This document shows, piece by piece, positions 4,304-63,804 of a DNA stretch of 64,000 nucleotides. The stretch's first letter is position 1. Each line of letters starts with the position of its first letter. Made by a program: the position numbers and the translations under genes. The notes beneath the pieces are model-generated. The model had not been told where the DNA came from. It saw only the letters and a program-made list of their open reading frames with translations, and did no database searches. The DNA comes from Haliclona indistincta (Eukaryota > Porifera > Demospongiae > Haplosclerida > Chalinidae), in NCBI GenBank assembly GCA_964017065.1, contig OZ024791.1, forward strand, positions 9,031,322 to 9,095,321, read 5' to 3'.

Positions 4304-4526
4304 GCACAACCACCATATCACAATCACCACTCCCATTAACGTTCCCATTCTCACCTCAGAATTAGCATTTTTTCCTGATAGGCCCATGGTTAATTTTCTC
4401 GTAAATGGTTTTACGCACGGCTTCTCGATAGGTTACACAGGTCCCCCTCTCGTCCATCGTCCTAAACACTCACACGACACCAACTGTCACTTCACGCACA
4501 ATCACACGAACCCTATGATTCATTTA
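4304..4526 (+). pseudogene. Coding fragment, possibly of a DIRS/recombinase-type retroelement
   Basis: An open frame continuous with an upstream ATG in the satellite (4284) encodes a segment with PINVPILTSELAFFPDRP followed by VNFLVNGFTHGFSIGY. I associate the pattern 'TSEL..(Y/F)PD+..V..L..GF..GF.IGY' with the region ahead of the reverse transcriptase in DIRS-like and related animal retroelements. This is recalled family knowledge, not a search. The fragment is about 70 codons, has no catalytic motif, and is cut by HLE copy B at 4527, so it is non-functional. Confidence 0.35.
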
Positions 4527-20269: not shown

Positions 20270-20960
20270 GTAATAGTTAACTCCCGGTCTCTGAGGCGAT
20301 GCGGGATATATACCGAGGTGGTTAATTATGCTGTCCGAGGGCGGAGCCCGAAGATGGCATAATTAACCACCGAGGTATTATCCCGATCGCCGAAGAGACC
20401 GGGAGTTAACTGACTTGTACCCCACCACCAGTCTTCTCGTGGTGTTTGTAGCTGCTCGTAGCTGTTCTGTATCTTGTAAGCGAAGATCTACGAGCGATGG
20501 GAGCCCAGGGCACTCGCCTCCAAGCGCATACTCGACAGGTCTATAAATGGCGAACGCCCGTGTTCAAGTTGGGCGACAAACGGCGAACGCCCGTGTTCAA
20601 GTTGGGCGACAAACGAAGCCTGGCGTCAACTTTGTGCAGCTAAAACGCACGGTAACTTGGCTTTCAGGCAGCAATGCTGGCTGACCTTTCCCAAAGGTTA
20701 ACACGTGCGCCAAAAATTTATTGATAATTTATTGACGATGGCCCACTAGTATCTGCTATTTTGTGGGGTATAAAGCTCCACTCACTTTCGCCGGGTGGGT
20801 AGGTGTGGACAAGGGACTAGTGCCACTTTGCCACTTCCTGGAAAATATCCATATTTGCCTGTTTTAACTTTAATATCCTGGAAAATATCCATATTTTCCT
20901 GTTTATATGGGATATATACCATGCCATTTTCCTTTGATCTTTGGGTGTGGTGGGGTACAA
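20270..20960 (+). mobile_element. HTE-2 copy b, full length (691 bp)
   Basis: GTAATAG then a long hairpin (20276-20410) whose apex reads GAGGGCGGAGCCCG. The inner TIR TTGTACCCCACCACCA is at 20415-20430. A non-coding body of about 500 bp holds a tandem duplication of a 33-bp phrase (GGCGAACGCCCGTGTTCAAG..., about 20546-20611) and two copies of CCTGGAAAATATCCATATTT. The far TIR GGTGTGGTGGGGTACAA ends at 20960. Flanks read GATAA|element|CCAAG. Confidence 0.92.
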
Positions 20961-23202: not shown

Positions 23203-23540
23203 GTATTAGTTATTGCCCTCACACGAGGGCAATAACAGACTTTAGTGACTGCGGGAAAGTCGGTTGCCCGAGTTGCGGTCGAGGGCGCAGCCCGAGACTT
23301 TACGAGGGCAGCCGACTTTCCCGAGGTCATTAATGTCGGTTATTGCCCGAGTTGTGTAGGGCAATAAATGATTTATTGCATAGTTCATCACTGTGAGCGC
23401 AATAACATCGTGAATTTTTCAAACTCGCAAAGACGCAACGGGCTGTTGCTATAGAAGACGCTACGCGCAGTCAATAACCTGCATTAATGCCCTCGAATAG
23501 AGCAATCTGATTGGTCAAAGATGACGTACTATGTAATAAC
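23203..23540 (+). mobile_element. HTE-1 copy 2, full length (338 bp)
   Basis: Hairpin 23209-23365 with intact apex GAGGGCGCAGCCCGAG. Inner TIR GATTTATTGCATAGTTCATC at 23369-23388. Far TIR GATGACGTACTATGTAATAA ending at 23540. The best copy for defining the family architecture together with copy 9. Confidence 0.93.
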
Positions 23541-31805: not shown

Positions 31806-32601
31806 CATATTTACCATAGTGTGTGGGCGTCCCCATACAAGGCACAGGTGGTATATTTGTCATATTCCCCATCATGGTGCACACCTCAGTTAACCCATTG
31901 AAGAGTGAATTTCTCATATACCTCCATGGTGGTATATATCGCATAATCCACCATGGTGATTATGCGAAATATCCCACCATGGTGGTATATGAGAAATGCA
32001 CTCCTCAAGGGGTTAACCAAGAGGTGTGCCCTGGTCACGTGACCCGGTTGAGGTGGCACGACAGCATCCTCGGAAAGTTATTCGCCTTGCAACTAGCAGC
32101 ACCTAGTTGCAAGGCAAAGATGCGCAGAAGTGGCTGAGATTTATAGTGTACAATCATCCTGACACTAGTGGGTTTTAAATTGGAAAGCATGTGACAAACC
32201 CCGCCCAAGTCATGTTGAATATTGCAAGAGCAATTTGTAAAACTTGGCGATCGCTCTTTCGCTCTAGAAGCACAAAGCTGTCCAAGTCTTTGCCACACAC
32301 TCTACTCAGGTACGCGTACACACTTGGGGTCTCCTTTCGGCCCGTGGCTGACCGCTAAATCGAGATCCACGCGAACGCGAGCAAGAAGCGACACCCACAC
32401 ACTAAAGTATATAACATATGAACCATGGCTTGTCGGTGTGTATGCCGAATATACCACCCTCGGTCTCGGTCATCGGAAGTTTGCAGCCTCGATAAACCCC
32501 TCGCTTCGCTCGGGGTTTATCTCGGCTGCAAACTTCCTCTGACCTCGACCTCGGGTGGTATATTCGGCATACACACCTCCAAGCCATGGTTTATATATTA
32601 C
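31806..32601 (-). mobile_element. HTE-6, single copy (about 796 bp)
   Basis: Left TIR ATATTTACCATAGTGTGTGG (from 31807) is matched inward of the hairpin by the complement of CACCCACACACTAAAGTATA (about 32393-32412). The hairpin (about 32416-32597) is long and clean. Its apex on the element strand is GAGCGAAGCGAG. It ends ATATTAC|ATAACC. The body has a second palindrome (31881-32024) rich in CCATGGTGG and a short one at about 32082-32118. Confidence 0.88.
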
Positions 32602-38130: not shown

Positions 38131-38508
38131 CATTAAACTATGACATGAATAATTCTCTTTGATGTAATGAGGTGTCCAAATTCCCGTATACACCTGCAGC
38201 AAAGCCATACAATGCACCACTTATTATACCATTAGCCATATAATGCACCATATAATGCCATACAATGCACCATACAAGCCATACAATGCACATAGTTTAA
38301 ATAGGTTAACCACCTCGTTGCCATACAATGCACCATACAAGCCATACAATGCACCATACAAGCCATACAATGCACCATACAATGCACATAGTTTAAATAG
38401 GTTAAACACCTCGTTGTCGGTGTATATGTGAATTTGCACACCTCGGGCTTCGCCCTCGGTGTCCAAATACCCATATACACCTCCACCTCGGCGTTTAACC
38501 TACATATA
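38131..38508 (-). mobile_element. HTE-3 copy 3, uninterrupted
   Basis: TTAAACTATGACATGAAT at left, (CCATACAATGCA)n middle with one more repeat than copy 2, inner TIR complement of ATAGTTTAAATAGG, hairpin with apex CTCGGGCTTCGCCCTCG, end TTAACCTACAT|ATAA. This copy supplies the empty site for HLE copy E. Confidence 0.88.
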
Positions 38509-42374: not shown

Positions 42375-43217
42375 ATCATACTAGTGGACACTGACTGAGA
42401 CAAGATGGCGAAGAATGCACTGAATACTCTCTTAAGCTATAGAGCGCCAGCTGCCGGGCCTATTGTTAAGAGAAAAAGTGCTCGCCTGGCCAAGAGGAAG
42501 GTCTCTTCTCGAATGTCCTCTTCATCTTCTTCAGCGCCCCTTGATGTTACTGGTCGGTCTCAGCTGACTTCGCTGCGGGTCACAGAGTCACAACCGTCAG
42601 CTCAGCTCTCTGCGTCGCCAACTCTGAGTCCAGAATCCCCTGTGTATCTGCGCTCCGAGCCTCCAAGCCCGCAATCCTCAGGGCCTCAAAGTCGACACTC
42701 ACCGTCATGTTCCAAGTCACTACGGCCTTCTCGTCCACCTTTTCTTCTACCTACGCCTCCTAGTCCTAAACCTCTGTCATCTCAATGCTCAGTCCTTTCT
42801 CAATGCTCAGTCCTTTCTAAGCTCCCGTTCCTTCTTTCTCTCTTTCTTATTCTAGTCCTTCTACTATCCCCTAAGTAGTTCTTTCCTCTTGTTGCATGTG
42901 TGTGTGTATTTTCCTGCTAACTCTCCTATGTTTCACTTCAGTCCTCTCTCTTCTTCCTGGTGACTTGGCTCGTACTATTATTACTATTATTACTACCACT
43001 TGCTGTTATGACCTTTGTATCAACCTACCTTTCATTAATGTTCTGTATATTTCATGTTCGTTCTTCATGACCTTCCACCTTGACCTTTGTTACATGTTTA
43101 TCACTGAACTTGATCATTATTATTATTATTGGCTTGTACCCTAGGATTAGCATTGCTACTGGTACGACCTAGGTTGTATGCTAAATTGTCATAAAAAACC
43201 CAAAAAAATCCAAAAAA
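42375..43217 (+). mobile_element. LINE-like retroposon copy 2, uninterrupted
   Basis: About 840 bp from GGACACTGACTGAGACAAG to an A-rich tail (AAAAAACCCAAAAAAATCC). Array on both sides matches array around copy 1, so the two arose by segmental duplication, not separate retroposition. It shows the element before HLE insertion. Confidence 0.65.
42405..42878 (+). CDS. Ser/Pro-rich ORF of the LINE-like element, copy 2 (157 aa)
   Basis: Same length and layout as the 32962 ORF, with substitutions such as T-to-N and P-to-L near the N-terminus and APL in place of VPL after the poly-Ser. No frame damage. Several of the changes are amino-acid altering, so there is no clear sign of purifying selection. 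No enzymatic motif. Confidence 0.4.
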   Translation: MAKNALNTLLSYRAPAAGPIVKRKSARLAKRKVSSRMSSSSSSAPLDVTGRSQLTSLRVTESQPSAQLSASPTLSPESPVYLRSEPPSPQSSGPQSRHSPSCSKSLRPSRPPFLLPTPPSPKPLSSQCSVLSQCSVLSKLPFLLSLFLILVLLLSPK

Positions 43218-45293: not shown

Positions 45294-45337
45294 TGACGTC
45301 ATCCAATTAAATTAACCCCTCGTGGCGAATGACGTCA
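45294..45337. promoter_or_regulatory. Two CRE palindromes ahead of the hAT gene
   Basis: TGACGTCA occurs at 45294-45301 and 45330-45337, with CCAATTAA between. The second overlaps the first in-frame ATG (45329), which supports this being promoter DNA and translation starting later. CREB/ATF control is an inference. Confidence 0.5.
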
Positions 45338-45367
45338 TTGACGTGCGTCACGTGCGTGCGTATCATC

Positions 45368-47317
45368 ATGGCAACTAGCAATGAAACTCGATCGCCACGA
45401 GGCCCACGATCGGCTGACGGCGCCAGCAGTACTACTGCCGGTGCAACGGGTGCATCAGCGTCAGCTACAGGTCCGCCAACACTGCTCAGCCAACTCAGAG
45501 CTCCCACTCAATCTGATTTAATGCGAAAGCGGAAGGTGAGAGCCAATGAACCTCCTCACACTGGTGCTCGAAGAAAGATGCCCGCTTGCTCGACGGATCC
45601 TAAAGGCATCAGTGCAGCTCAGAGAGCAAAGGAATTTTGCAACGACTCGATCACTGTCTCAGCAGGAAAGCTGTTTTGTACTGCTTGCCGAGAAGAGCTG
45701 TCACTGAAACTCAGTATCATCAAGAATCATGTACAGTCGTCAAAGCATGCACAGCGCAAGAAGCAGCTCACAGAGAAACGAAGCAGAGATAGTGATATAA
45801 CTGAAGCTTTCAAGTCCTATGAGCAGGAAGTTCATCCTTGTGGTGAAACTCTCTCTGAGGCACATAAGCTGTGGCGAGTGAAGGTTGTTACTACCTTCTT
45901 GAGAGCTGGTGTACCCTTAGCCAAAATCGATCATTTCAGGGAATTACTAGAGGAAAATGCATACAGCCTAACTGACCGACGGGGTATTTGCGACTTGATT
46001 CCCTTTGTTCAGTCTAGAGAGCAGCAGCAGATCAGAGCAGAACTTGAACAAAGAAATATCTCTGTCATTTTTGATGGTACCACTCGCCTTGGTGAAGCTC
46101 TTGTGATTGTTGTCAGATTCACTGATGACTTCGTGATCAAGCAGCGATTAGTCCGCTTTATGACTATTGCATCGTCAATGACTGGGGAAGAAATCGCTAG
46201 GGAGCTCATCAATGCACTATCTGTTGGCTATGGCATCACATCTGACAGGCTAGTTGCTATTATGCGAGATAGAGCCAGTGTGAACGGAGTTGCTACTCGA
46301 ACCATGAAGGTTGTCTTCCCAGATGTACTAGATGTCGGCTGCTATTCTCACACAATCGACCTAGCAGGAGATAAGTTTCGTACACCTAATCTTGACTCGT
46401 TTATTTGTCTGTGGATATCGCTGTTTTCTCATAGCCCACGAGCAAAACTATGGTGGAAAGGGAGGACTGGAAAGGCAATGGCTTCGTACAGCACAACTCG
46501 CTGGTGGAGCAAGTGGGAAGTCATGTCACAAGTCATGACTTTCTTTGGTGACATACTTCCTTTTCTCAAAGAGAATCCCGAGCTGTCGTCAGCTACCAAT
46601 CAAAAGTTGGTCACCATGCTCGAGAATCCTTCTGCAAAGGCACTCATTCAGATTGAGTTGGCAGCTGTAATAGATGCTGGTGAGCCTTTTGTTAAGGCTA
46701 CGTACAACTTAGAAGGTGATGGTCCTCTAGTGTTTATGTGCTTTGAGACACTGAGTGCTCTTGCTGCCAGCATTCATGTTGCACATTATCCTAACGTCCT
46801 GGCTGTTGCCAACAGCTTGGGAGGAGCAGTAGCAGCTAACACTCAGAAGTTTGTAGACTATGCCAAAACCTGTGTTCAGCCTGGTCTACAGTACTTCCTC
46901 GACAAATTCACTCATGAGTTGAGTGGAAGTGTGGCTGCTTTTAAAGCAGCACGGTTTTTTCTCCCACAGAAAGTGGTGGAGCTAAAACCTGATGCAGAAG
47001 CAATCGATTCTGTAAGAGCCTTTCCCTTCCTGGCTAAACCATCAGTACTAAGTGGATTAAAATCAGAACTGCCTAACTATCTGGCGAAGGCAATGGACAT
47101 AGATCCCGACACGAATGCTCTACAGTGGTGGAGAGCCCACAAGGGAGATCTACCCCACTGGTCTTCTGCTGCTGCTGAAGTTTTATTAGTTCAGCCATCT
47201 TCAGCTGCTGCTGAGCGTGTATTTTCGATGCTCAAAGCTTCTTTTGGGCCTCAGCAGGACTCCACTCTGAATGATTACATCGAGACCTCACTGATGCTTC
47301 AGTTTAACGGTCGTTAA
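45368..47317 (+). CDS. hAT transposase with N-terminal BED-type zinc finger (649 aa)
   Basis: The chosen start (45368, ATCATGG) has a better Kozak context than the in-frame ATG at 45329. Layout: Ala/Ser/Thr-rich leader, a BED-like finger (C104, C107, H121, H127), RNase H-like core with FDGTT (D236) and MRDRAS (D301), the hAT insertion-domain motif GCYSH (C325-x2-H328), TTRWWSKW at about 376-383, and the C-terminal dimerisation segment (about 585-640: QWWRAHKGDLPHW, then PSSAAAERVFSML). It would bind TIR and subterminal motifs and cut with a DDE centre in the nucleus. The third acidic residue was not assigned. No stop or frameshift. No intron signal needed. Domestication is unlikely, as ends and duplication are intact. 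Confidence 0.95.
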   Translation: MATSNETRSPRGPRSADGASSTTAGATGASASATGPPTLLSQLRAPTQSDLMRKRKVRANEPPHTGARRKMPACSTDPKGISAAQRAKEFCNDSITVSAGKLFCTACREELSLKLSIIKNHVQSSKHAQRKKQLTEKRSRDSDITEAFKSYEQEVHPCGETLSEAHKLWRVKVVTTFLRAGVPLAKIDHFRELLEENAYSLTDRRGICDLIPFVQSREQQQIRAELEQRNISVIFDGTTRLGEALVIVVRFTDDFVIKQRLVRFMTIASSMTGEEIARELINALSVGYGITSDRLVAIMRDRASVNGVATRTMKVVFPDVLDVGCYSHTIDLAGDKFRTPNLDSFICLWISLFSHSPRAKLWWKGRTGKAMASYSTTRWWSKWEVMSQVMTFFGDILPFLKENPELSSATNQKLVTMLENPSAKALIQIELAAVIDAGEPFVKATYNLEGDGPLVFMCFETLSALAASIHVAHYPNVLAVANSLGGAVAANTQKFVDYAKTCVQPGLQYFLDKFTHELSGSVAAFKAARFFLPQKVVELKPDAEAIDSVRAFPFLAKPSVLSGLKSELPNYLAKAMDIDPDTNALQWWRAHKGDLPHWSSAAAEVLLVQPSSAAAERVFSMLKASFGPQQDSTLNDYIETSLMLQFNGR

Positions 47318-47555: not shown

Positions 47556-48611
47556 AACAAAGAATAACCAATGATAACCAAAAATAACCACTGATAACAA
47601 CGATAACCACTGATAACCAACAATAACCATTGATAAACAAGTATAACCACTGATAACCAACTATAACATCTGATAACCAACGATAACCACTGATAACGAA
47701 CGATAACCGCTGATAACCAAAATGAACCACTGATAACCAACAATAACCAAGAATAACAAACTTTAACCACTGATAACCAACAATAACCACTGATATTCAA
47801 CAAGAACAACTGATAACCAACGATAACCACTGTTTACCAACGTTAACCACTGATAACCAACTATAACCACTGATATCCGACGATAACCAAGAAAAACCAA
47901 CAATAACCACTGATCACCAACGATAACCCCTGATAACCAACTATAACCACTGATAACCAACGATAACCAAGAAAAACCAACAATAACCACTGATCACCAA
48001 CGATAACCACTGATAACCAACAATAACCACTGATAATCAACGATAACAACTGATAACCAACAATAACCACTGATAATCCAACGACAACCTCTGATAACCA
48101 ACAATAACCACTGATAACCAACGATAACCAAGAATAACCAACAAAAACCACTGAAAACCAGCAATAACAACTGATAACCAACGATAACCAATGATAACCA
48201 AGAATAACCAAGAATAAACAACTTTAACCACTGATAACCAACTATAACCATTGATAACCAACTTTAACAACTGATAACCAACGATAACCACTGATAACCA
48301 ACGATAACCACAGATAACCAAAAATAACCAAGAATAACCAACTTTAACCACTGATAACAAACAATAACCACTGATAACCAACAATAACCACTGACAACCA
48401 ACGATAACCACTGATAACCAACGATAACCACAGATAACCAACTATAACCACTGAAACCAACGATAACCAAGAAAAACCAACAATAACCACTGATCACCAA
48501 CGATAACCACTGATAACCAACATTACCTCTGATAATCAACAATAACCACTGATAACCAACGATAACCACTGATAACCAACGATAACCACTGATAACCAAC
48601 TATAACATCTG
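47556..48611. repeat. Minisatellite segment, about 1.1 kb
   Basis: ATAACCANNN array between the hAT and the tyrosine-recombinase element. It ends AACATCTG, a common array word elsewhere followed by ATAACC, which defines the HTE-4 insertion point. Confidence 0.95.
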
Positions 48612-48637
48612 TTATCTACCGTTGCTAAGTGGTTGCT
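48612..48637. repeat. HTE-4 far TIR
   Basis: TTATCTACCGTTGCTAAGTG then GTTGCT. It matches the inner TIR at 50297-50322 with about three differences, in inverted orientation. Confidence 0.88.
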
Positions 48638-48681
48638 AAGCATATTGGTGCAGCATAAATAGGATACATCCTCCACACTAA

Positions 48682-48769
48682 GTGGACAATGCAATAATTC
48701 AAGTACAAAGTGCAATAACTCAAGTAGAGAATGCAATAACTAGAGTGGAAAGTGCAATAACTGAAGCAC
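48682..48769. repeat. 21-bp direct repeats downstream of the recombinase gene
   Basis: Four copies of a 21-base unit with core TGCAATAACT and AAGTA/AGTGG. On the coding strand the core reads GTTATTGCA, resembling the GGTTATTG word of the target array. It may be a recombinase-binding array or simply a 3' minisatellite. Confidence 0.7.
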
Positions 48770-48795
48770 AAATCATACATAATAATGCAGCATAT

Positions 48796-50175
48796 TCAAG
48801 GTGCATGACTAGTGCCACCCTGAAAAATGTTCACAGTACAAGAGGAGAAGTTCATTTGAGGAGTAAATCCTAGTGGAGTAACTTGAGCACACTGCTGTTG
48901 ACCAGTAACGGTAGTAGGGGCTTTTGTTGCAGCTAGGATTTGACAGGCAGCTTGCTGTTGATCCTCAGTCACACGCTCATATTGCCTAAGACCTTTCAGG
49001 GAAAGATGTCCAGAACGCTGTTGTATCACCTTCTCAGGCACACCTGCATTGAATAAGGCACTAGTGCCAGTAGCTCGAAGACTGTGGTTAGTCTTGTTCC
49101 CTAGAATATTTCCATCACTGCAAATACCACGTACCATAGTCGAAAGAGTGTTACGCCCAACTGGAATTGGTGAAAACCAAGGCTTAGTTGCATCCTTGGG
49201 AACGTTTGCCAATGGTGTCAAGTAAAAGACATCACGGGTAGCTGCATCAGGTGGTAACTTGCTAAGATAAAAATCTAACACACTGACATGGCATTTCTCC
49301 CCAACTTCTGGCACAGAATAAACTGGGACAACTTTACTTGTAACTCTCAGTTGGCGTAATCCCCCAGCACGGTTTTTTGAAACATGCTCTGTATATTCAT
49401 AGCGGTCTGGATTACTAAATCTTTTTACCTGAGACAACTTTAAAGCACGATGCTCTTCTCCTCCTCTAAGGCAGAAATTTTTCCCGTTTAAAAAGAACAC
49501 AGTGCGAAGAAGAGACTTTGGATTTTCACGTCCTAACACACCTTTTTCCCACAGGTTTCTCTGGTCATCTTCTGTAAAAACTTCTGCACTCTTGCTAGAA
49601 GAGCCCACACCTTCAGTGCGTAGACGACGGAAAACGTTGTCCATACAATCGTGCAATGGTGTAAAATCTTTGTTTTCAGTGTCAAGGAAGTTGGGACAAG
49701 ATGCATTCAGTGAGCGCATGTGGCGTAGTAGACCTGTGAGAAGTATGTAAATACTTTTGGGGGGATACTTGCTTCCATCCTTCTTCCGCGTCTCCGCTGT
49801 AAAAAGGCTCAACCACTTGCATAACTCTGATGAGTCACCACTGCTTAGAAGGCCATCGGGAACATGCTCACTAGTATCAGAAAAACGTTCTCTACGACAA
49901 CGACTCCAGTCAGTAAAATTAGTCAATGCCCATTTTGTAGACTTAGCTGTATTCTCGGGCACAAACTTGACTGCTATTAACTTTTTCTCTTCTTCGTCAA
50001 GAAAGTTGTAACGACTGCCAACTGCCAGTGAAGCGGCCTTCTTTTTTCGTGCAACACTGACACTCAAGCGCAACTTTTTGGGACCTGGTTCTGGGTTGTC
50101 GTTTTCTTTCTCTTCTGTTTCTTCATCATGCCAATCGTCCATTCCTAAGTCTAAATCAGCCCTCCTGCGCGCCAT
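48796..50175 (-). CDS. DUF3504/Crypton-type tyrosine recombinase (459 aa)
   Basis: The start is ATG at 50175 (GAAATGGCG); upstream in-frame sequence has no ATG. Layout: acidic then basic N-terminus (KKLRLSVSVARKKK), a helical core-binding region (KSTKWALTNFTDW about 78-90, to about 190), then the catalytic domain. Catalytic residues are complete: R237 in CLRGGEEHR, H364-x2-R367 in NHSLRATG, H390 in RSGHLS, and the nucleophile Y399 in LRQYERV, nine residues after H390. The family includes Cryptons and the domesticated ZMYM2/QRICH1/KIAA1958 tails, which often lack the tyrosine; this copy keeps it. It likely cuts and rejoins element ends through a 3'-phosphotyrosyl bond. No frameshift or internal stop. 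GTATTAG-hairpin ends place it as probable enzyme for all HTE families, an inference. Confidence 0.93.
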   Translation of the reverse strand: MARRRADLDLGMDDWHDEETEEKENDNPEPGPKKLRLSVSVARKKKAASLAVGSRYNFLDEEEKKLIAVKFVPENTAKSTKWALTNFTDWSRCRRERFSDTSEHVPDGLLSSGDSSELCKWLSLFTAETRKKDGSKYPPKSIYILLTGLLRHMRSLNASCPNFLDTENKDFTPLHDCMDNVFRRLRTEGVGSSSKSAEVFTEDDQRNLWEKGVLGRENPKSLLRTVFFLNGKNFCLRGGEEHRALKLSQVKRFSNPDRYEYTEHVSKNRAGGLRQLRVTSKVVPVYSVPEVGEKCHVSVLDFYLSKLPPDAATRDVFYLTPLANVPKDATKPWFSPIPVGRNTLSTMVRGICSDGNILGNKTNHSLRATGTSALFNAGVPEKVIQQRSGHLSLKGLRQYERVTEDQQQAACQILAATKAPTTVTGQQQCAQVTPLGFTPQMNFSSCTVNIFQGGTSHAP

Positions 50176-50239
50176 TTCTTCAGGTTGCAAACTAAAGCAG
50201 TAGCTTGAGATTCCAACGTGGCCGTTTCAAAAATTAACA

Positions 50240-50260
50240 AGCTGCAATCCTATTGGTTGT
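50240..50260 (-). promoter_or_regulatory. CCAAT-containing upstream region of the recombinase gene
   Basis: On the coding strand ACAACCAATAGGATTGCAGC lies about 75 bp before the start codon. HTE-1 bodies carry a similar GACCAATCAGATTGCTC near the far TIR. Both CCAAT and GATTGC are shared, so this may be a promoter or a common ancestral motif. Confidence 0.4.
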
Positions 50261-50296
50261 CGCTGTGATATGACCAAATTTGGCTATCAGCATTGC

Positions 50297-50322
50297 AGCA
50301 ACCACTTTGCAAATGTAGATAA
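50297..50322. repeat. HTE-4 inner TIR
   Basis: Complement of the far TIR (AGCAACCACTTTGCAAATGT then AGATAA), positioned immediately inside the terminal hairpin. This inner position is the feature that links the six HTE families. Confidence 0.85.
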
Positions 50323-50328
50323 AACACT

Positions 50329-50444
50329 TATACCACCCTCCCATCGGGATGTTACCTGGTTAATATCCCTCCTCCCTCGGGCGCTGCGCGCCCTCGGGAA
50401 GTCGGGATATTAACCAGGTAACATCCCTCTGGAAGGTGGTATAA
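50329..50444. repeat. HTE-4 terminal hairpin
   Basis: Arms of about 42 bp (TTATACCACCCTCCC...GGTTAATATCCC and complement) with a second stem capped by GGGCGC-GCA-GCGCCC on the coding strand. Adjacent GTATTAG (complement of CTAATAC, 50445-50451) touches the array at ATAACC. Confidence 0.92.
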
Positions 50445-50451
50445 CTAATAC

Positions 50452-53759: not shown

Positions 53760-54450
53760 GTAATAGTTAACTCCCGGTCTCTGAGGCGATACGGGATATA
53801 TACCGAGGTGGTTAATCATGCTGTCTGAGGGCGGAGCCCGAGGATGGCATAATTAACCACCGAGGTATTATCCCGATCGCCGAAGAGACCGGGAGTTAAC
53901 TGACTTGTACCCCACCACCAGTCTTCTAGTGGTGTTTGTAGCTGCTCGTAGCTGTTCTGTAGCTTGTAAGCGAAGATCTACAAGCGATGGGAGCCCAGGG
54001 CACTCGCCTCCAAGCGCACACTCGCCAGGTCTATAATGGCGAACGCCCGTGTTCAAGTTGGGCGACAAACGTCGAACGCCCGTGTTCAAGTTGGGCGACA
54101 AACGAAGCCTGGCGTCAACTTTTGTGCAGCTAAAACGCACGGTAACTTGGCTTTCAGGCAGCAATGCTGGCTGACCTTTCCCAAAGGTTAACACGTGCGC
54201 CAAAAATTTATTGATAATTTATTGACGATGGCCCACTAGTATCTGCTATTTTGTGGGGTATTAAGCTCCACTCACTTTCGCCGGGTGGGTAGGTGTGGAC
54301 AAGGGACTAGTGCCACTTTGCCACTTCCTGGGAAATATCCATATTTGCCTGTTTTAACTTTAATATCCTGGAAAATATCCATATTTTCCTGTGTATATGG
54401 GATATATACCATGCCATTTTCCTTTGATCTTTGGGTGTGGTGGGGTACAA
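53760..54450 (+). mobile_element. HTE-2 copy d, full length
   Basis: Forward copy very close to copy b, with the 33-bp internal duplication. Left flank ACATTAA|GTAATAG, right flank GGGGTACAA|CCATTG. Apex GAGGGCGGAGCCCGAGG. Confidence 0.92.
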
Positions 54451-54849
54451 CCATTGATAACCAACCATAACCACTTATAACATACGGTAGCAACCGATAA
54501 CCAATAATAATCACTGATAACCAACAATAACCACTGATAACCAAAAATAACCACTGATAACCAAGAATAACCACTGATAACCACGATAACCACTGATAAC
54601 CAACAATAACCACTGATAACCAAGAATAACCGCTGATAACCAACGATAACCACCGATAACCAAGCATAACCGCTGACAACCAAGAATAACCACTGATAAC
54701 CAACGATAACCAACTATAAACACTGATAACCAACAATAACCACTTGTAACCAACAATTACCACTGATAACCAACGATAACAACTGATAACCATCAATAAC
54801 CACTGAAAACCAACAATAACCACTTATAACAGAGTATAACCACAGATAA
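54451..54849. repeat. Minisatellite segment, 0.4 kb
   Basis: ATAACCANNN array with several phase slips. Confidence 0.95.
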
Positions 54850-55422
54850 GTACTAGTTAAACAACGGTCCGAGGGCAGTATGGAATATACACGAGGGCAA
54901 TCCAATTAGAGCCCGAGGGTGCAGCCCGACGGGTCTAATTGGATTGCACGAGTGGATATTCCATACTGCCCGAGGGACCGTTGTTTAACGTGTTTGTATC
55001 GCACCTCGTGGGCGTATCCCACTTAATTGTACTGTTTTTAGTATCGCTTGTGCTATTTTTAGTATCACACGTGCTATAGTAAAGACCACAATGGAACCCA
55101 CTAGCATAAGGAAGCTTAAGCGGTATATAAAGCGAACGCAATAGTGCTCTGTACCTTCCGGTAGGGCTTGCCCTATCACTATTTTTGTACCGCGTGGTCA
55201 ACACTGTACCACGTTAAAAATTTTTTGAGCTACTTGCCCTTTCCGCAGATATTGTCTGTTTCTTCAGACAATATCTGCACCCGGGCAATATATCGTGGCC
55301 CCGGGCAATATATTCCATATTGCCCTAGGGCAGCAATATATTCCATATTGCCCTGCAGTTGGGGCAGTATGGAATATATTGCCCAGGCGGTGCCTTTGAT
55401 ATGCCCACGAGGTGGGATACAA
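54850..55422 (+). mobile_element. HTE-5, single copy (573 bp)
   Basis: GTACTAG then the hairpin 54856-54989 (arms GTTAAACAACGGTCCGAGGG and complement; apex GGGTGCAGCCC). The inner TIR TTGTATCGCACCTCGTGGGC is at 54994-55013 and its complement GCCCACGAGGTGGGATACAA at 55403-55422. The body adds a compact hairpin (GCAGATATTGTCTG/CAGACAATATCTGC, 55246-55280) and repeated GGCAATATATTCCATATTGC segments that echo the terminal hairpin arm. Flanks GATAA|element|CCATC. Confidence 0.9.
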
Positions 55423-56140
55423 CCATCTATAACCACTAATAACAAACAATAACCACTGTTAACCAACGATAACAACTGATAACCAACAGTAACCACTGAT
55501 AACCAAAATTGTACCCCACCACACCCAAAGATCAAAGGAAAATGGCATGATATATATCCCATATACACAGGAAAATATGGATATTTTCCAGGATATTAAA
55601 GTTAAAACAGGCAAATATGGATATTTTCCAGGAAGTGGCAAAGTGGCACTAGTCCCTTGTCCACACCTGCCCACCCGGCGAAAGTGAGTGGAGATTTATA
55701 CCCAACAAAATAGCAGACACTAGTGGGCCATCGTCAATAAATATTTGGCGCACGTGTTAACCTTTGGGAAAGGTCAGCCAGCATTGCTGCCTGAAAGCCA
55801 AGTTACCGTGCGTTTTAGCTGCACAAAAGTTGACGCCAGGCTTCGTTTGTCGCCCAACTTGAACACGGGCGTTCGCCATTTGTCGCCCAACTTGAACACG
55901 GGCGTTCGCCATTATAGACCTGGCGAGTGTGCGCTTGGAGGCGAGTGCCCTGGGCTCCCATCGCTCGTAGATATTCGCTTACAAGCTACAGAACAGCTAC
56001 GAGCAGCTACAAACACCACGAGAAGACTGGTGGTGGGGTACAAGTCAGTTAACTCCTGGTCTCTTCGGCGATCGGGATAATACCTCGGTGGTTAATTATG
56101 CCATCCTCGGGCTCCGCCCTCGGACAGCATAATTAACCAC

Positions 56141-56145
56141 CTCGG
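56141..56145. repeat. Gypsy target duplication, left (CTCGG)
   Basis: 5-bp direct repeat matched at 60672-60676. The uninterrupted family sequence ACCACCTCGGTATATATCCC confirms a single CTCGG in the empty site. Confidence 0.96.
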
Positions 56146-56369
56146 TGTAGCGTTAGCTATACGTGGGCGGGTAGACCAGGATAATATTGATCTGAATGAT
56201 TATTACTGGAATCAAACAGTAAGCAAATAGAATCAAGAGTGAATCGAATGAAGCATGCACACATAGGCGGCCTTTTTAAATAGAGAGGTGAACATGATAC
56301 TAGTGGGACTAGAGGTGATAAATGATGCACATGGTACACTGAATAATACATAAAGTGTCTAACACCACA
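56146..56369 (-). repeat. Gypsy 3' LTR
   Basis: 224 bp, TG...CA ends on either strand (plus strand starts TGTAGCGTTAGC and ends AACACCACA). Same sequence as the 5' LTR. Confidence 0.96.
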
Positions 56370-56381: not shown

Positions 56382-59300
56382 TCAATGTTTGATGAACGGA
56401 GCGAAATGTTCAGTGGGTCTTTGAGTGCGCGTGCTCCTTCTTGGTCCTGTTGATTGATCGTTCTCGTGTGATTGAGGTGATTGATTGTTCTCGTGTAATT
56501 GAGGTGATTGATCGTTCTGTGTAGACAGTTGCTGTGTTCTCTCTTCAGGAAGTTGGATAATATCCTTTCTATTCCGTCTTATCTCCGAGCCCTGATTTGT
56601 TCTGATCACATGGGAGCGAGGTGCTACATCCGTTTCAATAACTGTAGCCTCTTCGTTTCTTGTAGGAATCCATACTCTGTCTCCCTCTTCTACATGTGGT
56701 AGTTCTCTTGCTCCATGGTGTTTGTCATGGTTCTTTTTCTGTTTGTTCTTCATGTGTTGATCTCTGTTTCGAACTCTTGTCTCATCTGGTATCTCAGGTT
56801 TTCTTCTCTCTCGTGTAGTGGGAACTTTGGTCCTTGGTAGACGACTCATGAGCAACTCTGCTGGGCTATACTGTCCACCTTGAATTGGAGTTGTTCGATA
56901 GTTCAGTAGAGCGAGGTAGGGGTCGGAACTTTTCTCAAGCATATTCTTTACTGTTCGGACTGCCCTCTCTGCCTCTCCGTTGCTCTGTGGAAAATAGGGG
57001 CTACTTGTCTTGTGGACAAACTGGTAGCTCTTGGCGAAGTCTTCAAAAGCTTCAGCTGTGTATTGCGGTCCGTTATCTGAGAAGACAATCTCTGGGATTC
57101 CGTGTCTGGCAAAGATACTCTTGGATTTGTTGATAACTTCTCCTGCTGTGGTTCTGTTCAGCTTAGCGATTTCGATGTAGCGAGAATAGTAGTCAACATA
57201 GAGTAGAAATGGATCACCCTTCCATTCGAATAGGTCAGTGCCTATCTTCTGCCATGGCAACTCAGGCAGTTCTGATGGGACCAGGGGTTGAGCTCGTTGC
57301 TGCTGATGTTTACAACATGTTTCACAGCTCGTTACGATCTTTTCCAATTGTGTGGAGAGACCTGGCCACCAGACAGACTGTCGTGCTCTGTCCCTGCACT
57401 TTGTGATACCTAGATGACCCTCATGTAGCTTCTCTAGGATCTGTTGCTGTAGTGGAGGAGGAATAACAATACGGGAACCTCTCATTAGCACACCATTCTC
57501 TACAGAGAATTGAGCAGCAAGGGGTAGGAATGGTCTCACCACTCTTGGTGCTGTCTTCTTGTCAGGCCAAGATGAGTAGCAGTACTTTGTTACTAGCTGA
57601 CAGGCTTCATCTTGCTGTTGAAGTTCCTTGATCTGCTCCATCCTCTGTTCAGTGGCTGGTAGATTCTGCATGATGAGTTGGATGTAAGCGTTTCCTTCTT
57701 GGTGGAATGACTCGTCGTCGTCTGTGGGATCCCGTGATGTAGATCTCGATAGTGCATCTGCGATGAGTAGCTGCTTTCCAGGAACATGAGAGATAGAGAA
57801 ATCGTACCTCATCATCCTCAGACGAAATCGTTGTACTCGAATTGGCATTTCTTCCAAGTGCTTGGTGCTGAAGAGTGGAACTAATGGCTTATGATCAGTC
57901 CATATGTGAAACTTCAGTCCAATGAGATAGTCGGATAGCCTCTCACATGCCCACGTGAATGCCAGAGCCTCTTTTTCTATCTGCGCATATCTCTGTTCCG
58001 TTGACGTCATGGATCTTGAGATATATGCAACAGGCTTGTTTTCTCCATCTGACTGCTTTTGTAACAGAACAGCTCCTAATCCAAAAGAAGATGCGTCGGC
58101 TGAAACCGTGGTTTCCAGATTTGGATCGAAGAGAGTGAGAATGGGGCTCTTGGTTAGCATCTCTTTGGTTTTCTCAAAAGCTGTCTGCTGTGCTTCTTCC
58201 CATACCCAGTGAGTGTCCTTGTTGAGCAATTCTCTCATGGGCTGAGTAACTTCTGCGAGATTTGGGGCGAACTTGCTGAGATGATTCACCATTCCCAAGT
58301 AGCGTCTGACATCGCCAACATTCTTGGGTTGCTTGAATTCTGTTATTGCTTCTATCTTGCCAGGGTCTGGTCGAACTCCTGAACTGTCGATGACATGTCC
58401 CAGGAACTGTAGTGAAGTCTGAGCGAATTTGCACTTCTCGTTGTTGAGGGTCATGCCTGCTTTCTCCAGTCGTGTGAGAACTTCTCGGAGGTGCTTGTTG
58501 TGTTCTTCTAGTGTCTCTCCGTAGACTAGAACATCATCCATCATACACACCACATTGGGAATTCCGGCCAACATCTCGGACATTCTCCTTTGAAAGTGTT
58601 CGGGTGCTGACGATATGCCAAATGGTAGTCGATGAAAACGATACCTTCCGAACGGTGTGATGAATGTAGTGAGTCGAGAAGATTCTTCAGAGAGTGGGAT
58701 CTGCCAGAAACCTGCATTTGCATCCAATTTAGACATTACTTTTGCTCCTGACAATTGAGCTAGAACTTGGTCTACAGCAGGTAGAGGGTGTCTCTCACGT
58801 TGCACACTCTCATTCAGCTTTGTCAGATCAACACAAATTCTGACCTTGCCATCACCTTTTGGAACCACAACCATGCCAGAGCACCAATCAGTTGGCTCTT
58901 GGATCTTTGAGATGACTCCTAGTCTCTCCATGCGTTGTAGCTCTTCTTTGACTGGCTCTAGTAGAGGGATAGCGACTCTGCGAGGGGTAGACAGGGCAAA
59001 CGGCTTTGCTCCTTCTTTCAGCTGAATTGTGTAATCTCCATCCAGTTTCCCAAGGCCAGTGAATAAACCTGGAAACTCAGCATGTGGGTTTAGTGACTGA
59101 CTGCTTACCACACCGATGCGTTGGATGAGATGTAGCTGCTCTATGGCTGGCTGTCCTAGCAGAGATCTGGATGCTCCTTTCACCACATAGACCTGTGTCT
59201 TGGTTTCGTGAGTGTGACTCTTGATACTTGCTGTGAACATCCCCATCACTGGTAGAGAGTGAGTATCCGGGCATTTCAGGTTTCGATCAGAAGGTTGCAG

Positions 59301-60251
59301 GGCTGGTTTGTCAAGGTGTGTCCACACACGCTCTGATATGACTGTCACCTCCGCACCTGTGTCGATGTGAAACTCTGTCGGCTTGTCGTTGACTTGTAGA
59401 GTGATACTCCAGTTGTCCTTGCTTCTGTCTGATACTGTTCCAATGAAGGCATCTTCTTCCTGTTCAATACTGGATACTTTTGCGGCTGATCTGCATACTG
59501 CTTCGTAATGTCCTGTCTTCTTGCACTTGCGGCATGTTGCATCCTTGGCAGGGCATTTTTGACGAGAATGAGAAGGAGATTTTCCGCACCATGAACACTT
59601 GCTGTTCTCTGGTCGGCTGTTCTTGGGTTTACTCTTCTGTGGAGCTTGCTTGGGCCTTGCATGATGCTTTGACTGTACTTCTCCCACAGGAGTGTCCTTT
59701 GGATTACCTCTCAGGGTTGGTTGCTGTAGCTTGACTGCTTCAGATTGTCTCACTTGAGTGATTGCCGTAGCTAGAGTGAGTTTGGAGTCCAGCTGTAGTT
59801 TCTCTGAAAGAGAAGAATTGTTGATTCCAACCACAATCCGATCTCTGATCATCTGGTCACGTAGTCCTTCGTAATCGCAGTGTTCGACTAGTGTGTGAAG
59901 AGCTGTGATGAAACTGTCCACAGGCTCACCAGGTTCTTGTCGACGAGAGTTGAACAATGCACGTTCGTATATCACATTTCTTTGTGGAACGAAATGAGCA
60001 TCAAACTTTTTCCTGACTGTCTCGTAAGACTTTTCAGACTCTCCATCAGCATACTTAAACGAAGTGAGTATGTCGTCAGCTTCATCTCCCATACAGTAGA
60101 TTAGCATGTTCAGATGTGCTTCGTCTCCCTTGTCTGCTAGACCCGAGGCCTTGCTGTATCGCTCGAATCGTCTGATCCAACGACACCAGAGTTGAGGTTT
60201 GCTGAACGAGAAGGGTTCCGGTGGAGATACTGTTCCTTGCGGTGTTGCCAT
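56382..60251 (-). CDS. Gag-Pol polyprotein of a Gypsy-type retrotransposon (1289 aa)
   Basis: The start is ATG 60251 (AAGATGG), giving MATPQGTVSPPEPF, a typical gag opening; earlier in-frame codons lack ATG. Order: Gag (about 1-190), two zinc knuckles (C219/C222/H228/C233 and C240/C243/H248/C253), aspartic protease (D297-T-G), reverse transcriptase (LDANAGFWQ, D510; MMDD with D572 and D573), RNase H (D719, E761, D786), integrase with HHCC zinc domain (H943, H946, C976, C979) and DDE core (D1006, D1059, E1095, with exact 35-residue D-E spacing), basic tail. Gag and Pol share one frame with no frameshift. MMDD in place of YMDD is a tolerated variant. Integrase has no recognisable chromodomain. 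All catalytic residues are present. Confidence 0.97.
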   Translation of the reverse strand: MATPQGTVSPPEPFSFSKPQLWCRWIRRFERYSKASGLADKGDEAHLNMLIYCMGDEADDILTSFKYADGESEKSYETVRKKFDAHFVPQRNVIYERALFNSRRQEPGEPVDSFITALHTLVEHCDYEGLRDQMIRDRIVVGINNSSLSEKLQLDSKLTLATAITQVRQSEAVKLQQPTLRGNPKDTPVGEVQSKHHARPKQAPQKSKPKNSRPENSKCSWCGKSPSHSRQKCPAKDATCRKCKKTGHYEAVCRSAAKVSSIEQEEDAFIGTVSDRSKDNWSITLQVNDKPTEFHIDTGAEVTVISERVWTHLDKPALQPSDRNLKCPDTHSLPVMGMFTASIKSHTHETKTQVYVVKGASRSLLGQPAIEQLHLIQRIGVVSSQSLNPHAEFPGLFTGLGKLDGDYTIQLKEGAKPFALSTPRRVAIPLLEPVKEELQRMERLGVISKIQEPTDWCSGMVVVPKGDGKVRICVDLTKLNESVQRERHPLPAVDQVLAQLSGAKVMSKLDANAGFWQIPLSEESSRLTTFITPFGRYRFHRLPFGISSAPEHFQRRMSEMLAGIPNVVCMMDDVLVYGETLEEHNKHLREVLTRLEKAGMTLNNEKCKFAQTSLQFLGHVIDSSGVRPDPGKIEAITEFKQPKNVGDVRRYLGMVNHLSKFAPNLAEVTQPMRELLNKDTHWVWEEAQQTAFEKTKEMLTKSPILTLFDPNLETTVSADASSFGLGAVLLQKQSDGENKPVAYISRSMTSTEQRYAQIEKEALAFTWACERLSDYLIGLKFHIWTDHKPLVPLFSTKHLEEMPIRVQRFRLRMMRYDFSISHVPGKQLLIADALSRSTSRDPTDDDESFHQEGNAYIQLIMQNLPATEQRMEQIKELQQQDEACQLVTKYCYSSWPDKKTAPRVVRPFLPLAAQFSVENGVLMRGSRIVIPPPLQQQILEKLHEGHLGITKCRDRARQSVWWPGLSTQLEKIVTSCETCCKHQQQRAQPLVPSELPELPWQKIGTDLFEWKGDPFLLYVDYYSRYIEIAKLNRTTAGEVINKSKSIFARHGIPEIVFSDNGPQYTAEAFEDFAKSYQFVHKTSSPYFPQSNGEAERAVRTVKNMLEKSSDPYLALLNYRTTPIQGGQYSPAELLMSRLPRTKVPTTRERRKPEIPDETRVRNRDQHMKNKQKKNHDKHHGARELPHVEEGDRVWIPTRNEEATVIETDVAPRSHVIRTNQGSEIRRNRKDIIQLPEERTQQLSTQNDQSPQLHENNQSPQSHENDQSTGPRRSTRTQRPTEHFAPFIKH

Positions 60252-60719: not shown

Positions 60720-61451
60720 ATAACCACAGATAACCAAGAATAACCACTGATAACCAACGATAACAACTGATAACCAACGATAACCAAGAATAACCAGAAT
60801 TAACCACTGATAACCAACCAAAACCACTGATAACCAACGACAACAACCGATAACCAATAATAACCACTGATAACCAACAATAACCACTGATGACCAACAA
60901 TAAGCACTGATAACCAAGAGTAGCCAATGATAACAACGATAACCACTGATAACCAACAATAACCATTGACAACCAAGAATAACCACTGATAACCACCGAT
61001 AACCAAGCATAACCGCTGATAACCAAGAATAACCACTGATAACCAACGATAACCAAGGATAACCAACTATAACCTCTGATAACCAAGAATAACCACTGAT
61101 TATCAACGATAACAACTTCTAACCATCAATAACCACTGATAACCAACAATAACCACTTATAACAGAGAATTACCACTGATAACCATCGATAACCACTGAT
61201 AACCAACAATAACCACTGTTAACCAACGATAACAACTGAAAACCAACAATAACCACTGATAACCAACAATAACCACAGATAACCAAGAATAACCACTGAT
61301 GACCAACGATAACAACTGATAACCAACGATAACCAAGAATAACCAACATTAACCACTGACAACCAACCATAAGCACTGATAACCAACGATAACAACCGAT
61401 AACCAATAATAACCATTGATTACCAAGAAAAACCACTGATAACAACGATAA
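60720..61451. repeat. Minisatellite segment, 0.73 kb
   Basis: ATAACCANNN array, partly shared in arrangement with 54451-54849 (for example ACTTATAACAGAG words). Confidence 0.95.
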
Positions 61452-62150
61452 GTAATAGTTAACTCCCGCTCTCTGAGGCGATACGGGATATATACCGAGG
61501 TGGTTAATTATGCTGTCCGAGGGCGGAGCCCGAGGATGGCATAATTAACCACCGAGGTATTATCCCGATCGCCGAAGAGACCGGGAGTTAACTGACTTGT
61601 ACCCGACCACCAGTCTTCTCGTGGTGTTTGTAGCTGCTCGTAGCTATTCTGTAGCTTGTAAGCGAAGATCTACGAGCGATGGGAGCCCAGGGCACTCGCC
61701 TCCAAGCGCACATGCACTCGCCAGGGCTCATAATGGCTAACGCCCGTGTTCAAGTTGGGCGACAAACGGCGAACCGTCCCGTGTTCAAGTTGGGCGACAA
61801 ACGAAGCCTGGCGTCAACTTTTGTGCAGCTAAAACGCACGGTAACTTGGCTTTCAGGCAGCAATGCTGGCTGACCTTTCCCAAAGGTTAACACGTGCGCC
61901 AAAAATTTATTGATAATTTATTGACGATGGCCCACTAGTATCTGCTATTGTGTGGGGTATAAAGCTCCACTAACTTTCGCCGGGTGGGCAGGTGTGGACA
62001 AGGGACTAGTGCCACTTTGCCACTTCCTGGAAAATATCCATATTTGCCTGTTTTAACTTTAATATCCTGGAAAATATCCATATTTTCCTGTGTATATGGG
62101 ATATATACCATGCCATTTTCCTTTGATCTTTGGGTGTGGTGGGGTACAAC
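61452..62150 (+). mobile_element. HTE-2 copy f, full length
   Basis: Forward copy with 33-bp duplication and a few small insertions (GCACATGCACTCG). Flanks ACGATAA|GTAATAG and GGGGTACAA|CCACTG. Confidence 0.92.
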
Positions 62151-62825
62151 CACTGATAACCAACAATAAACATTGATAACCAAGAATAACCGCTGATAAC
62201 CAGCGATAACCACCGATAACAACTGATAACCATCAATAACCACTGGTAACCAAGAATTACCAAGAATAACCACTGATAACCAAGGATAACCACTGATAAC
62301 CAACAATAACCACTGATAACCAACGATAACCACTCATAACCAAGAATAACCACTGATAACCAACGATAACAACTGATAACCAACAATAACCACTGAAAAC
62401 CACCCATAACCACTGATAACCAACGATAACCACTCATAACCAACAATAACCACTGATAACCAACGATAACCAACTATAACCACTGATAACCTATGATAAA
62501 CACTGATAACCTAGAATAACCACTGATAACCAGCGATAATCCCTGATAACCAATTATATCCACTGATAACCAACAATAACCCCTGATAACCCAGAATAAC
62601 CACTGATAACCAAGAATAACCACTGACAACCTACAATAACCATTAATAACCAACAGTAACCACTGATAACCAACGATAACCACTGATAACCAACGATAAC
62701 CGCTGATAACCAAAAATAACCTCTGATAACCAACAATAACCAATAATAACCAACTTTAACCACTGATAACAAACAATAACCACTGATAACCAACAATAAC
62801 CACTGATAACCAACGATAACCACTG
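62151..62825. repeat. Minisatellite segment, 0.68 kb
   Basis: ATAACCANNN array between HTE-2 copies f and g, which point away from each other's TIR ends. Confidence 0.95.
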
Positions 62826-63475
62826 TTGTACCCCACCACACCCAAAGATCAAAGGAAAATAGCATGGTATATATCCCATATACACAGGAAAATATGGATA
62901 TTTTCCAGGATATTAAAGTTAAAACAGGCAAATATGGATATTTTCCAGGAAGTGGCACTAATCCCTTGTCCACACCTGCCCACCCGGCGAAAGTGAATGG
63001 AGCTTTATACCCCACAAAATAGCAGATACTAGTGGGCCATCGTCAATAAATTATCAATAAATTTTTGGTGCACGTGTTACCCTTTGGGAAAGGTCAGCCA
63101 GCATTGCTGCCTGAAAGCCAAGTTACCGTGCGTTTTAGCTGCACAAAAGTTGACGCCAGGCTTCGTTTGTCGCCCAACTTGAACATGGGCATTCGCCATT
63201 GTTGACCTGGCGAGTGTGCGCTTGGAGGCGAGTGCCCTGGGCTCCCATCACTCGTAGATCTTTGCTTACAAGCTACAGAACAGCTACGAGCAGCTACAAA
63301 CATCACGAGAAGACTAGTGGTGGGGTACAAGTCAGTTAACTCCCGGTCTCTTCGGCGATCGGGATAATACCTCGGTGTTTAATTATGCCATCCTCGGGCT
63401 CCGCCCTCGGACAGCATAATTAACCACCTCGGTATATATCCCGTATCGCCTCAGAGACCGGGAGTTAACTATTAC
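62826..63475 (-). mobile_element. HTE-2 copy g, full length
   Basis: Reverse copy without the 33-bp duplication. Flanks ACCACTG|TTGTACCCC and CTATTAC|ATAACC. A short deletion removes CAAAGTGG near 62955. Confidence 0.92.
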
Positions 63476-63804
63476 ATAACCAATTTTAACCACTGATAAC
63501 CAACAATAACCACTGATAACCAACGATAACCACTGATAACCAACTATAACCACTGATAACCAACGATAACCAAGAAAAACCAACTATAACCTGTGATCAC
63601 CAACGATAACCACTGATAACCAACTATAACCACTGATAACCAACGATAACCAAGAAAAACCAACAATAACCACTGATAACCAACAATAACTACTGATAAC
63701 CAACGATAACCAATGATAACCAACAATAACCAAGAATAACCAACTTTAACCACTGATAACCAACAATAACCACTGATAACCAACAATAAATACTGATAAC
63801 CAAC
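63476..63804. repeat. Last minisatellite segment
   Basis: ATAACCANNN array ending ACTGATAACCAACG at 63804, the right edge of the whole locus. Confidence 0.95.

Follow-up and report, generated by a model that had tools for sequence, protein, structure and literature searches.

Crypton-type tyrosine recombinase elements of the sponge Haliclona indistincta carry a terminal hairpin that probably serves as a folded single-strand recombination site

Why should a small transposon carry a long hairpin at one end, and why should one of its terminal inverted repeats (TIRs) begin exactly at the base of that hairpin? These questions are raised by HTE-4, a complete autonomous element of 1840 bp at positions 48612..50451 (minus strand; locus L021) of a 64,000-nucleotide stretch of DNA from the sponge Haliclona indistincta, hereafter the window (contig C9, 9031322-9095321, of a genome assembly of 144 Mb in 46 contigs). 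A sequence-only reading of the window had placed HTE-4 at exactly these positions and had proposed that it and five enzyme-less elements, HTE-1, -2, -3, -5 and -6, share one plan: a hairpin, an inner TIR at the hairpin base, a body and a far TIR. We find that this hairpin-TIR plan is real and general in this genome, and we consider it probable that its bearers are Crypton-type tyrosine recombinase (YR) transposons, both autonomous and non-autonomous, whose terminal hairpin acts as a recombination site in the form of a folded single strand.

Read along the gene strand, HTE-4 opens with a 7-nt core, GTATTAG (50445..50451), which is joined to TAT of the target and is followed by the hairpin (50328..50444; base boxes TTATACCACC/GTGGTATAA, CGAG opposite CGAG, apex GCGCAGC), a 5-nt spacer, GTGTT (50323..50327), between hairpin base and inner TIR, and the inner TIR itself (50297..50322). 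An intact open reading frame (ORF) for a YR of 459 aa (48796..50175) comes next, and the element closes with the far TIR (48612..48637), the inverted partner of the inner TIR and the 3′ end of the element (..AGATAA), all of these parts lying on the minus strand. The match between the two TIRs is better than in dinucleotide-shuffled sequence (p=0.005, the floor for 200 shuffles). Around the element lies a minisatellite of 10-bp period, sampled at 48301..48611 and extending past 50451, which is an array of TAA-N7-TAA and a target for elements. Contig 3 contains a second full copy of HTE-4 whose hairpin end is identical over 136 bp, together with a third copy retaining its far end only, so that HTE-4 must have moved or been duplicated in recent times.

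By their enzyme the elements are Crypton-type, judged from matches to DUF3504 and QRICH1 models. The HTE-4 ORF combines a DUF3504 domain with a QRICH1-type N-terminal domain and a Phage_integrase match, and it has the catalytic set R237, H364, R367, H390 and Y399, of which R237, H364 and R367 are invariant in 32 relatives and Y399 is nearly so. No other HTE-4 ORF reaches 150 aa, and this one has no domains other than YR-type ones. Scans with short peptide patterns found no relatives in viral contigs (two scans) or in prokaryote genomes (one scan). Many of the relatives (e.g., P0002, P0003, P0007, P0010, P0013 and P0014) are on contigs of only 1.7-2.3 kb, about one element long, which could be repeat-broken assembly or circles.

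How general is this arrangement? A genome scan gave 150 scored DUF3504 matches among 192 candidates, and we read 44 of the 150, the best 30 by score and 14 hand-picked for long ORFs and diversity. A long hairpin stands just 5′ of the recombinase domain in 41 of these 44 YR loci, a count that combines an automatic finder, four loci set by motif (L013-L015, L018) and a somewhat wider search. Palindromes and satellite repeats are plentiful in the window, and the hairpins could in principle be coincidental palindromes or artefacts of assembly or satellite. The specificity for the 5′ side speaks against this: an ungapped finder, limited to 1150 nt or less 5′ of the recombinase domain, detected a hairpin in 37/44 YR loci, whereas the comparison sets, namely the 3′ sides of YR loci and the flanks of HTE-1, -2 and -5 copies (some of which are inside the same satellite), gave 5/36 and 9/72, respectively. 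For CGAG-rich hairpins the corresponding counts were 35/44, 2/36 and 7/72. The control-flank counts reject chance hairpins, the dinucleotide shuffles reject chance TIRs, and the stems described below have changed on both sides while CGAG opposite CGAG persists, so that we give an artefactual origin almost no credence. One YR locus is present in three tandem copies at an exact spacing of 2925 bp (L013-L015; C2:18945998-18955306).

The TIRs are as general as the hairpins. We aligned the sequence that follows the hairpin with the sequence that follows the ORF and compared the result with 200 dinucleotide shuffles; an inner TIR that starts at the hairpin base and recurs inverted past the gene was found at p<=0.05 in 31 of the 41 loci and at p<=0.01 in 23. 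The suggestions of the sequence-only reading that DUF3504 genes elsewhere in the genome may carry hairpin-TIR ends, and that inner TIRs should surpass shuffled sequence, were thus both upheld. In addition, the modules follow the order 7-nt core, box, hairpin, box, 5 nt, inner TIR, body and far TIR ending in ..AA. This 7/5 spacer layout fits 35 of the 41 rows; since 7 and 5 positions are marked off in every row by design, the actual test is the neighbouring letters: TT starts the inner TIR in the 35 fitting rows, TA occupies -3/-2 ahead of the 7-mer in 32 of the 41, and TAA or TAT precedes it in 22. At the 5′ start of the elements, a 7-mer (ATAATAG, GTATTAG, ATATAGG and ATGTAGG are examples) precedes a box TTA.., after which come the hairpin, ..TAA, 5 nt and the inner TIR; 3′ ends read ..TAA or ..CAA.

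Does the recombinase act on the hairpin, or is it a passenger (or resolvase) in elements moved by another enzyme through a single-strand route, such as an HUH-type enzyme like those of IS200/IS605 or Helentrons? The lack of a target duplication, the hairpin and inverted repeats at one end and the strand polarity described below would all suit such an enzyme, and second-type Helitrons have hairpins and asymmetric inverted repeats (PMC8969392; this, like the other papers cited here by PMC number, is drawn on in part). Against it are the YR as the sole HTE-4 ORF of at least 150 aa, the YR beside the hairpin in 41/44 loci (a count to which our choice of YR loci contributes), the two-sided 7-bp target, which is YR-like, and the agreement between hairpin class and recombinase tree. 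On that tree, a quick one with long branches and with near-copies that contribute to the agreement, the hairpin classes require 22 changes, where the minimum is 20 and the shuffled mean 31.2, and none of 200 shuffles gave a count as low. In one case of disagreement, L026, the hairpin picked is that of a nested element, and L026 has a hairpin of its own farther upstream, in the same class as that of L022, a near relative. An HUH or Rep/Helicase enzyme within HTE-4 is rejected because its ORF has YR domains only, no search having been made for a helper elsewhere in the genome, and we regard movement by another enzyme as improbable.

What, then, could the hairpin be for? The hairpins are about 80-200 bp long and have a marked strand polarity, which we assessed with DNA energy parameters on 24 hairpin classes, one representative each, four of the hairpins having been set by motif. 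The gene (top) strand is more stable than its complement in 23 of the 24 classes and contains CGAG 104 times, on both arms, compared with 7 occurrences of CTCG. The 2x2 internal loops are CGAG/CGAG in 39 of 57 cases and GA/GA in 47, and the apices are mostly GNA triloops, with GCGNAGC in 16 classes and its complement in one; the sign-test p-values of 3e-6 and 2e-7 are nominal, the hairpin classes being related. Facing CGAG motifs form tandem sheared G.A pairs. DNA mini-hairpins in which a G-C pair closes a GNA loop have extraordinary stability (PMC4686876). Within the TTAGAC group of 12 hairpins, 23 of 47 predicted stem pairs (RNA parameters) have changed on both sides with pairing kept. The persistence of CGAG/CGAG would argue for selection, because copying from arm to arm would erase it into perfect pairing. 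The hairpin therefore looks, from its sequence, as though built to fold as one strand. In one copy (L029:610-702) the gene strand has CTCG rather than the CGAG of its own class, as if the inner palindrome had been inverted.

A strand that folds better than its complement could also be a transcript, and the hairpin might work as RNA, in the leader of the recombinase mRNA, instead of as a DNA site. It is 5′ of the gene on the coding strand, the gene strand folds best, and CGAG loops could also form in RNA. However, HTE-1, -2, -3, -5 and -6 have no gene and still retain the hairpin and its polarity, and the hairpin base adjoins the exchange point, all of which makes a role as RNA very improbable in our view.

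These enzyme-less elements are HTE-1 (23203..23539, plus strand, 337 bp) and HTE-2 (20270..20960, plus), each a dispersed family, HTE-5 (54850..55422, plus), likewise a dispersed family, HTE-3 (38133..38505, minus, ends set by eye) and HTE-6 (about 31809..32601, minus, ends set by eye and the left one approximate). All had been recognized in the sequence-only reading, with ends that stand unchanged for HTE-2 and HTE-5 and needed slight correction for HTE-1, HTE-3 and HTE-6. For HTE-1, HTE-2 and HTE-5, hairpin and body have exact ends in 12/12 loci read per family (the final two bases of HTE-5 being AA in 9 of its 12), and HTE-1 has 218 exact left ends and 244 exact right ends genome-wide. The sequence-only reading had taken the six families to be unrelated, a view that is not supported, since three of the five enzyme-less elements have hairpins in common with YR-bearing copies: those of HTE-3, HTE-5 and HTE-6 cluster with the hairpins of L016, L086 and L030, respectively. 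HTE-1 and HTE-2 obey the same start, end and target rules as the YR elements. Two HTE-1-ended loci, L090 (about 2.0 kb) and L091 (about 1.1 kb), were considered as autonomous HTE-1 and rejected, the longest open stretch being 149 codons in the former and none exceeding 90 in the latter.

Where do the elements land? HTE-1 left flanks (n=94) have T in 87% at -3, A in 80% at -2 and A/T in 95% at -1, and right flanks (n=91) have T in 74% at +8 and A in 56% at +10, the right side nearly mirroring the left. These logos draw on 97 of the 100 listed left ends (218 total), three more rows then being collapsed as duplicates, and on 91 of the 100 listed right ends (244 total). Three left and five right rows were omitted as repeated flanks, the third of the left rows being an HTE-1 tandem, and four right rows because GTATTAG/GTAATAG followed (HTE-1 tandems in two cases, an HTE-2 start in another and C2:9595009). 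At HTE-2 sites, +8 is T in 31/38 and +9 is A in 29/38 (39 of 62 lettered rows from 105 matches, the 23 omitted being inner TIRs on the other strand, and one duplicate collapsed), and YR elements have T at +8 in 19/25 and A at +9 in 15/25 (no ends were found for L013 or L018; rows abutting another element, four in number, were omitted and repeats collapsed). Taken together, the flanks define the target as TAW-7 bp-TW, with insertion at its left edge (TAW^N7-TW). There is no target duplication: HTE-1 left and right flanks agree over four letters in 0/38 sites and over three in 6/38, where 3.3 are expected. Element end and target flank have only about TAA/TAW in common, and the element's own joined ends read TAA-7-TTA, the same figure as the target. 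Tyrosine-recombinase sites typically have 6 to 8 bp between their arms (PMC3212892).

This target also explains the crowding of elements in the window. On its plus strand TAA-N7-TAA has 1523 matches, where no other spacing between 3 and 14 has fewer than 15 or more than 58; the 10-bp-period minisatellite is an array of target sites, and hence the elements cluster in it. A scan of the window for the start pattern, made without any flank requirement, gave 20 matches, of which 18 are element starts by the sequence that follows and two are satellite-like; 17 of the 18 directly follow TAA or TAT. The sequence-only reading had described six element families, and there are at least 18 recognizable starts, HTE-3 and HTE-6 being additional to these. 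Further starts in the minisatellite, of HTE-1, of HTE-2 and one of the ATATAGG type, are at 19148, 30033, 30930, 52414, 53760 and 61452 on the plus strand and at 63475, 60719, 42184, 37762, 25312, 24582, 22129 and 20060 on the minus strand. Inverted HTE-2 copies account for the long inverted repeats at about 53799-56149 and 61449-63478. Element ends are targets as well: among the 100 listed HTE-1 right ends, two run into an HTE-1 start and one into an HTE-2 start, HTE-2 has landed after HTE-5 (L060/L074) and after HTE-2 (L062), HTE-1 follows the element end in the flank common to L024 and L025, and at L009 and L034 a hairpin of the element's own kind directly follows its end. The continuous palindrome that the sequence-only reading had predicted for a circle, in which the far end would meet the hairpin, is physically present at the L009 and L034 junctions, and the same head-to-tail arrangement occurs in HTE-1 dimers. 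That reading had overlooked the spacers of 7 and 5 nt, the TAW-N7-TW target, the polarity of the hairpin strands and the reason for the clustering.

A major question arising from these ends and flanks is "Does the exchange involve both DNA strands or one?" The published model for Cryptons is excision as a circle followed by reintegration (PMC3212892). An ordinary Crypton of this kind would leave as a double-stranded circle, its YR would recombine the junction (..AA-7 bp core-TTA..) with the target, and the hairpin would play an accessory part, for instance as an array that binds YR or as a signal for transcription or replication. In favor of this, target and joined ends both resemble a two-armed YR site with a 7-bp core. 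However, the cores of element and target are unrelated, and if such 7-bp cores were exchanged by staggered cuts in both strands, both kinds of product should result, whereas all 90 HTE-1 inner-box matches have the element's own 7-mer on the left and none has an unrelated target core there (79 are exact by our own count and 11 are variants, one of them shifted by a 3-nt insertion). On the right, the target core follows the element end. Double-strand exchange also leaves the strand polarity of the hairpin and the inner TIR unexplained, as well as the retention of the hairpin by enzyme-less elements, and we therefore consider it unlikely, though it is the rival that most deserves attention. In Tn916-like YR elements the coupling sequence, which occurs at the ends and where the circle is joined, is variable; that kind of exchange is ruled out here by the element's own left 7-mer in the same 90/90 matches.

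Conversely, if the core's left edge were the site of a single exchange that replication then completes, just the products observed would be expected, and the insertion products, from which alone the exchange is read, agree with it; this is our central inference and not a proof. How might one strand suffice? We propose that in the single top strand the far TIR would pair with the inner TIR to form one recombinase box, while the hairpin base would provide the second box, with the outer box stacked on it. The 7-nt loop on the cut side and the 5 nt opposite would then be an unpaired central spacer, exchanged on one strand. The recombinase would cut only at AA^core, the cut ends would either be joined into a single-strand circle or be passed directly to a target that had been cut at TAW^N7, and the insertion would be finished by replication. 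We infer these steps, from folding in the cell through one-strand cutting, circle or direct transfer to completion by replication, from anatomy, exact ends, target and gene-strand foldability that can be read directly in the DNA. On this model the inner TIR would exist, and would be placed at the hairpin base, because the outer box needs the pairing of far and inner TIR; it would be the folded strand's substitute for the missing complementary strand and would also bring both ends together, while the hairpin would supply the second box and a stable cap. We lean, with some caution, towards the broader proposal that the elements are a eukaryotic counterpart of integron recombination: a large self-mobile superfamily that transposes as a folded single strand, its ends paired via an internal repeat into a two-box YR site with an unpaired 7/5 spacer, with a stem cap whose CGAG tandem G.A steps and GNA triloop suit DNA in single-stranded form, a one-strand cut and join, and element ends and TAA-N7-TAA satellites as landing arrays.

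Several observations weigh against folded single-strand exchange as a general account. Three YR loci (L020, L023 and L033) have no hairpin in the DNA read there, and L010, L017, L018, L029, L030 and L088 are outside the 7/5 rule by script, L029 fitting by eye; the spacer layout of HTE-6 deviates from the rule too. Folding energies of the top and bottom strands differ mostly by a few kcal/mol in totals of 35-90, the opposite strand of L078 is slightly the better folder, and L029 has a flipped hairpin core whose bottom strand folds better, a case masked in the 23/24 since L029 is not its class representative. No YR-bearing partner was identified for HTE-1 or HTE-2. Among the 100 listed HTE-1 right ends, besides the three that run into another element start, there is one (C2:9595009, GTATTAGTTTTT) in which ..TAA is followed by GTATTAG, which may be a core on the 'wrong' side. 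Finally, a Foldseek search with a structure model of the recombinase ranked domesticated QRICH1 first and then Cre, both above IntI, so that the model is nearer Cre than IntI, no search having been made for the IntI-specific insertion.

How do the elements compare with known systems? To our knowledge, the movement of Cryptons has not been worked out in detail. Like Cryptons, the present elements have a YR as the only recognized enzyme, a QRICH1/DUF3504-type protein, non-autonomous derivatives and no target duplication. They differ in having TIRs (31/41 loci, p<=0.05), a large hairpin, the 7/5 spacer and the TAW-N7-TW target, and in lacking, as seen in HTE-1, direct repeats of 4-6 bp at both ends; in the part of the paper drawn on, Cryptons are described with 4-6-bp terminal direct repeats and without TIRs or long direct repeats, and no terminal repeats were found in animal Cryptons (PMC3212892). 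Among the open-access papers listed by our literature searches, none reports hairpin-ended Cryptons, as judged by titles and abstract openings. The attC site of integrons consists of two boxes with a central spacer that is left unpaired, a terminal stem and irregularities that choose the strand, and undergoes exchange of one strand followed by replication (PMC2727003). The elements would have in common with it a palindromic site with two boxes, unpaired spacer and terminal stem, provided that far and inner TIR pair to form the outer box, and with integron cassettes the single exchange finished by replication that we propose, as well as insertion at the ends of other elements. They would work like integron cassettes but are not cassettes: they are self-mobile eukaryotic elements with their own YR and a hairpin at the 5′ end, the outer box would come from the element's two ends, the top strand would be used here and the bottom strand in attC, and CGAG/CGAG loops with GNA apices take the place of the two or three single extrahelical bases of attC.

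Likenesses to other mobile elements are more partial. IS200/IS605 elements insert without duplication beside a short target that is 5′ of their left end, and have strand-specific hairpins near both ends and an HUH Y1 transposase, whereas here there is a YR, one large hairpin and a two-sided target. Helentrons and Helitrons use a Rep/Helicase enzyme. Helentrons and second-type Helitrons resemble the present elements in hairpins, short asymmetric inverted repeats and the absence of duplication (PMC8969392), although their hairpins are small and they insert before T, compared with a YR, hairpins of about 80-200 bp and TAW-N7-TW here. The strand-biased circularizing elements (SEs) of Vibrio, which give a circular copy of one strand and leave no empty donor site, are likewise YR elements with strand-biased behavior and have a 6-bp crossover region, but they are of 7-41 kb with several genes and few target places, and no inverted-repeat structure was found at their target, according to the part of the paper drawn on (PMC9345347).

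Apart from these elements, the window contains an array (1-4796) in which copies, repeated and inverted, succeed one another at 183-bp steps, a near-perfect inverted repeat with 311-nt arms that are 99% complementary and 29 nt between them (15019-15669), two near-identical serine- and proline-rich ORFs of 157 aa (32962-33435 and 42405-42878, plus strand), a long open frame for a hAT-type transposase of 662 aa (45329-47317) and another for a Ty3-type gag-pol of 1289 aa (56382-60251, minus strand).

The anatomy described for Cryptons offered little purchase on their mechanism; with exact ends known for hundreds of copies, a logo for the target and a prediction of the exchange point, that mechanism can now be tested directly. 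If one-strand exchange is true of these elements, there would be a eukaryotic counterpart of integron-style recombination, the domesticated DUF3504 domain of ZMYM and QRICH1 genes would be kin to enzymes acting on folded single-stranded DNA, and a small eukaryotic recombinase would be at hand whose target is compact and sequence-tolerant. Were such exchange to be confirmed, the elements would deserve the name of a new kind.

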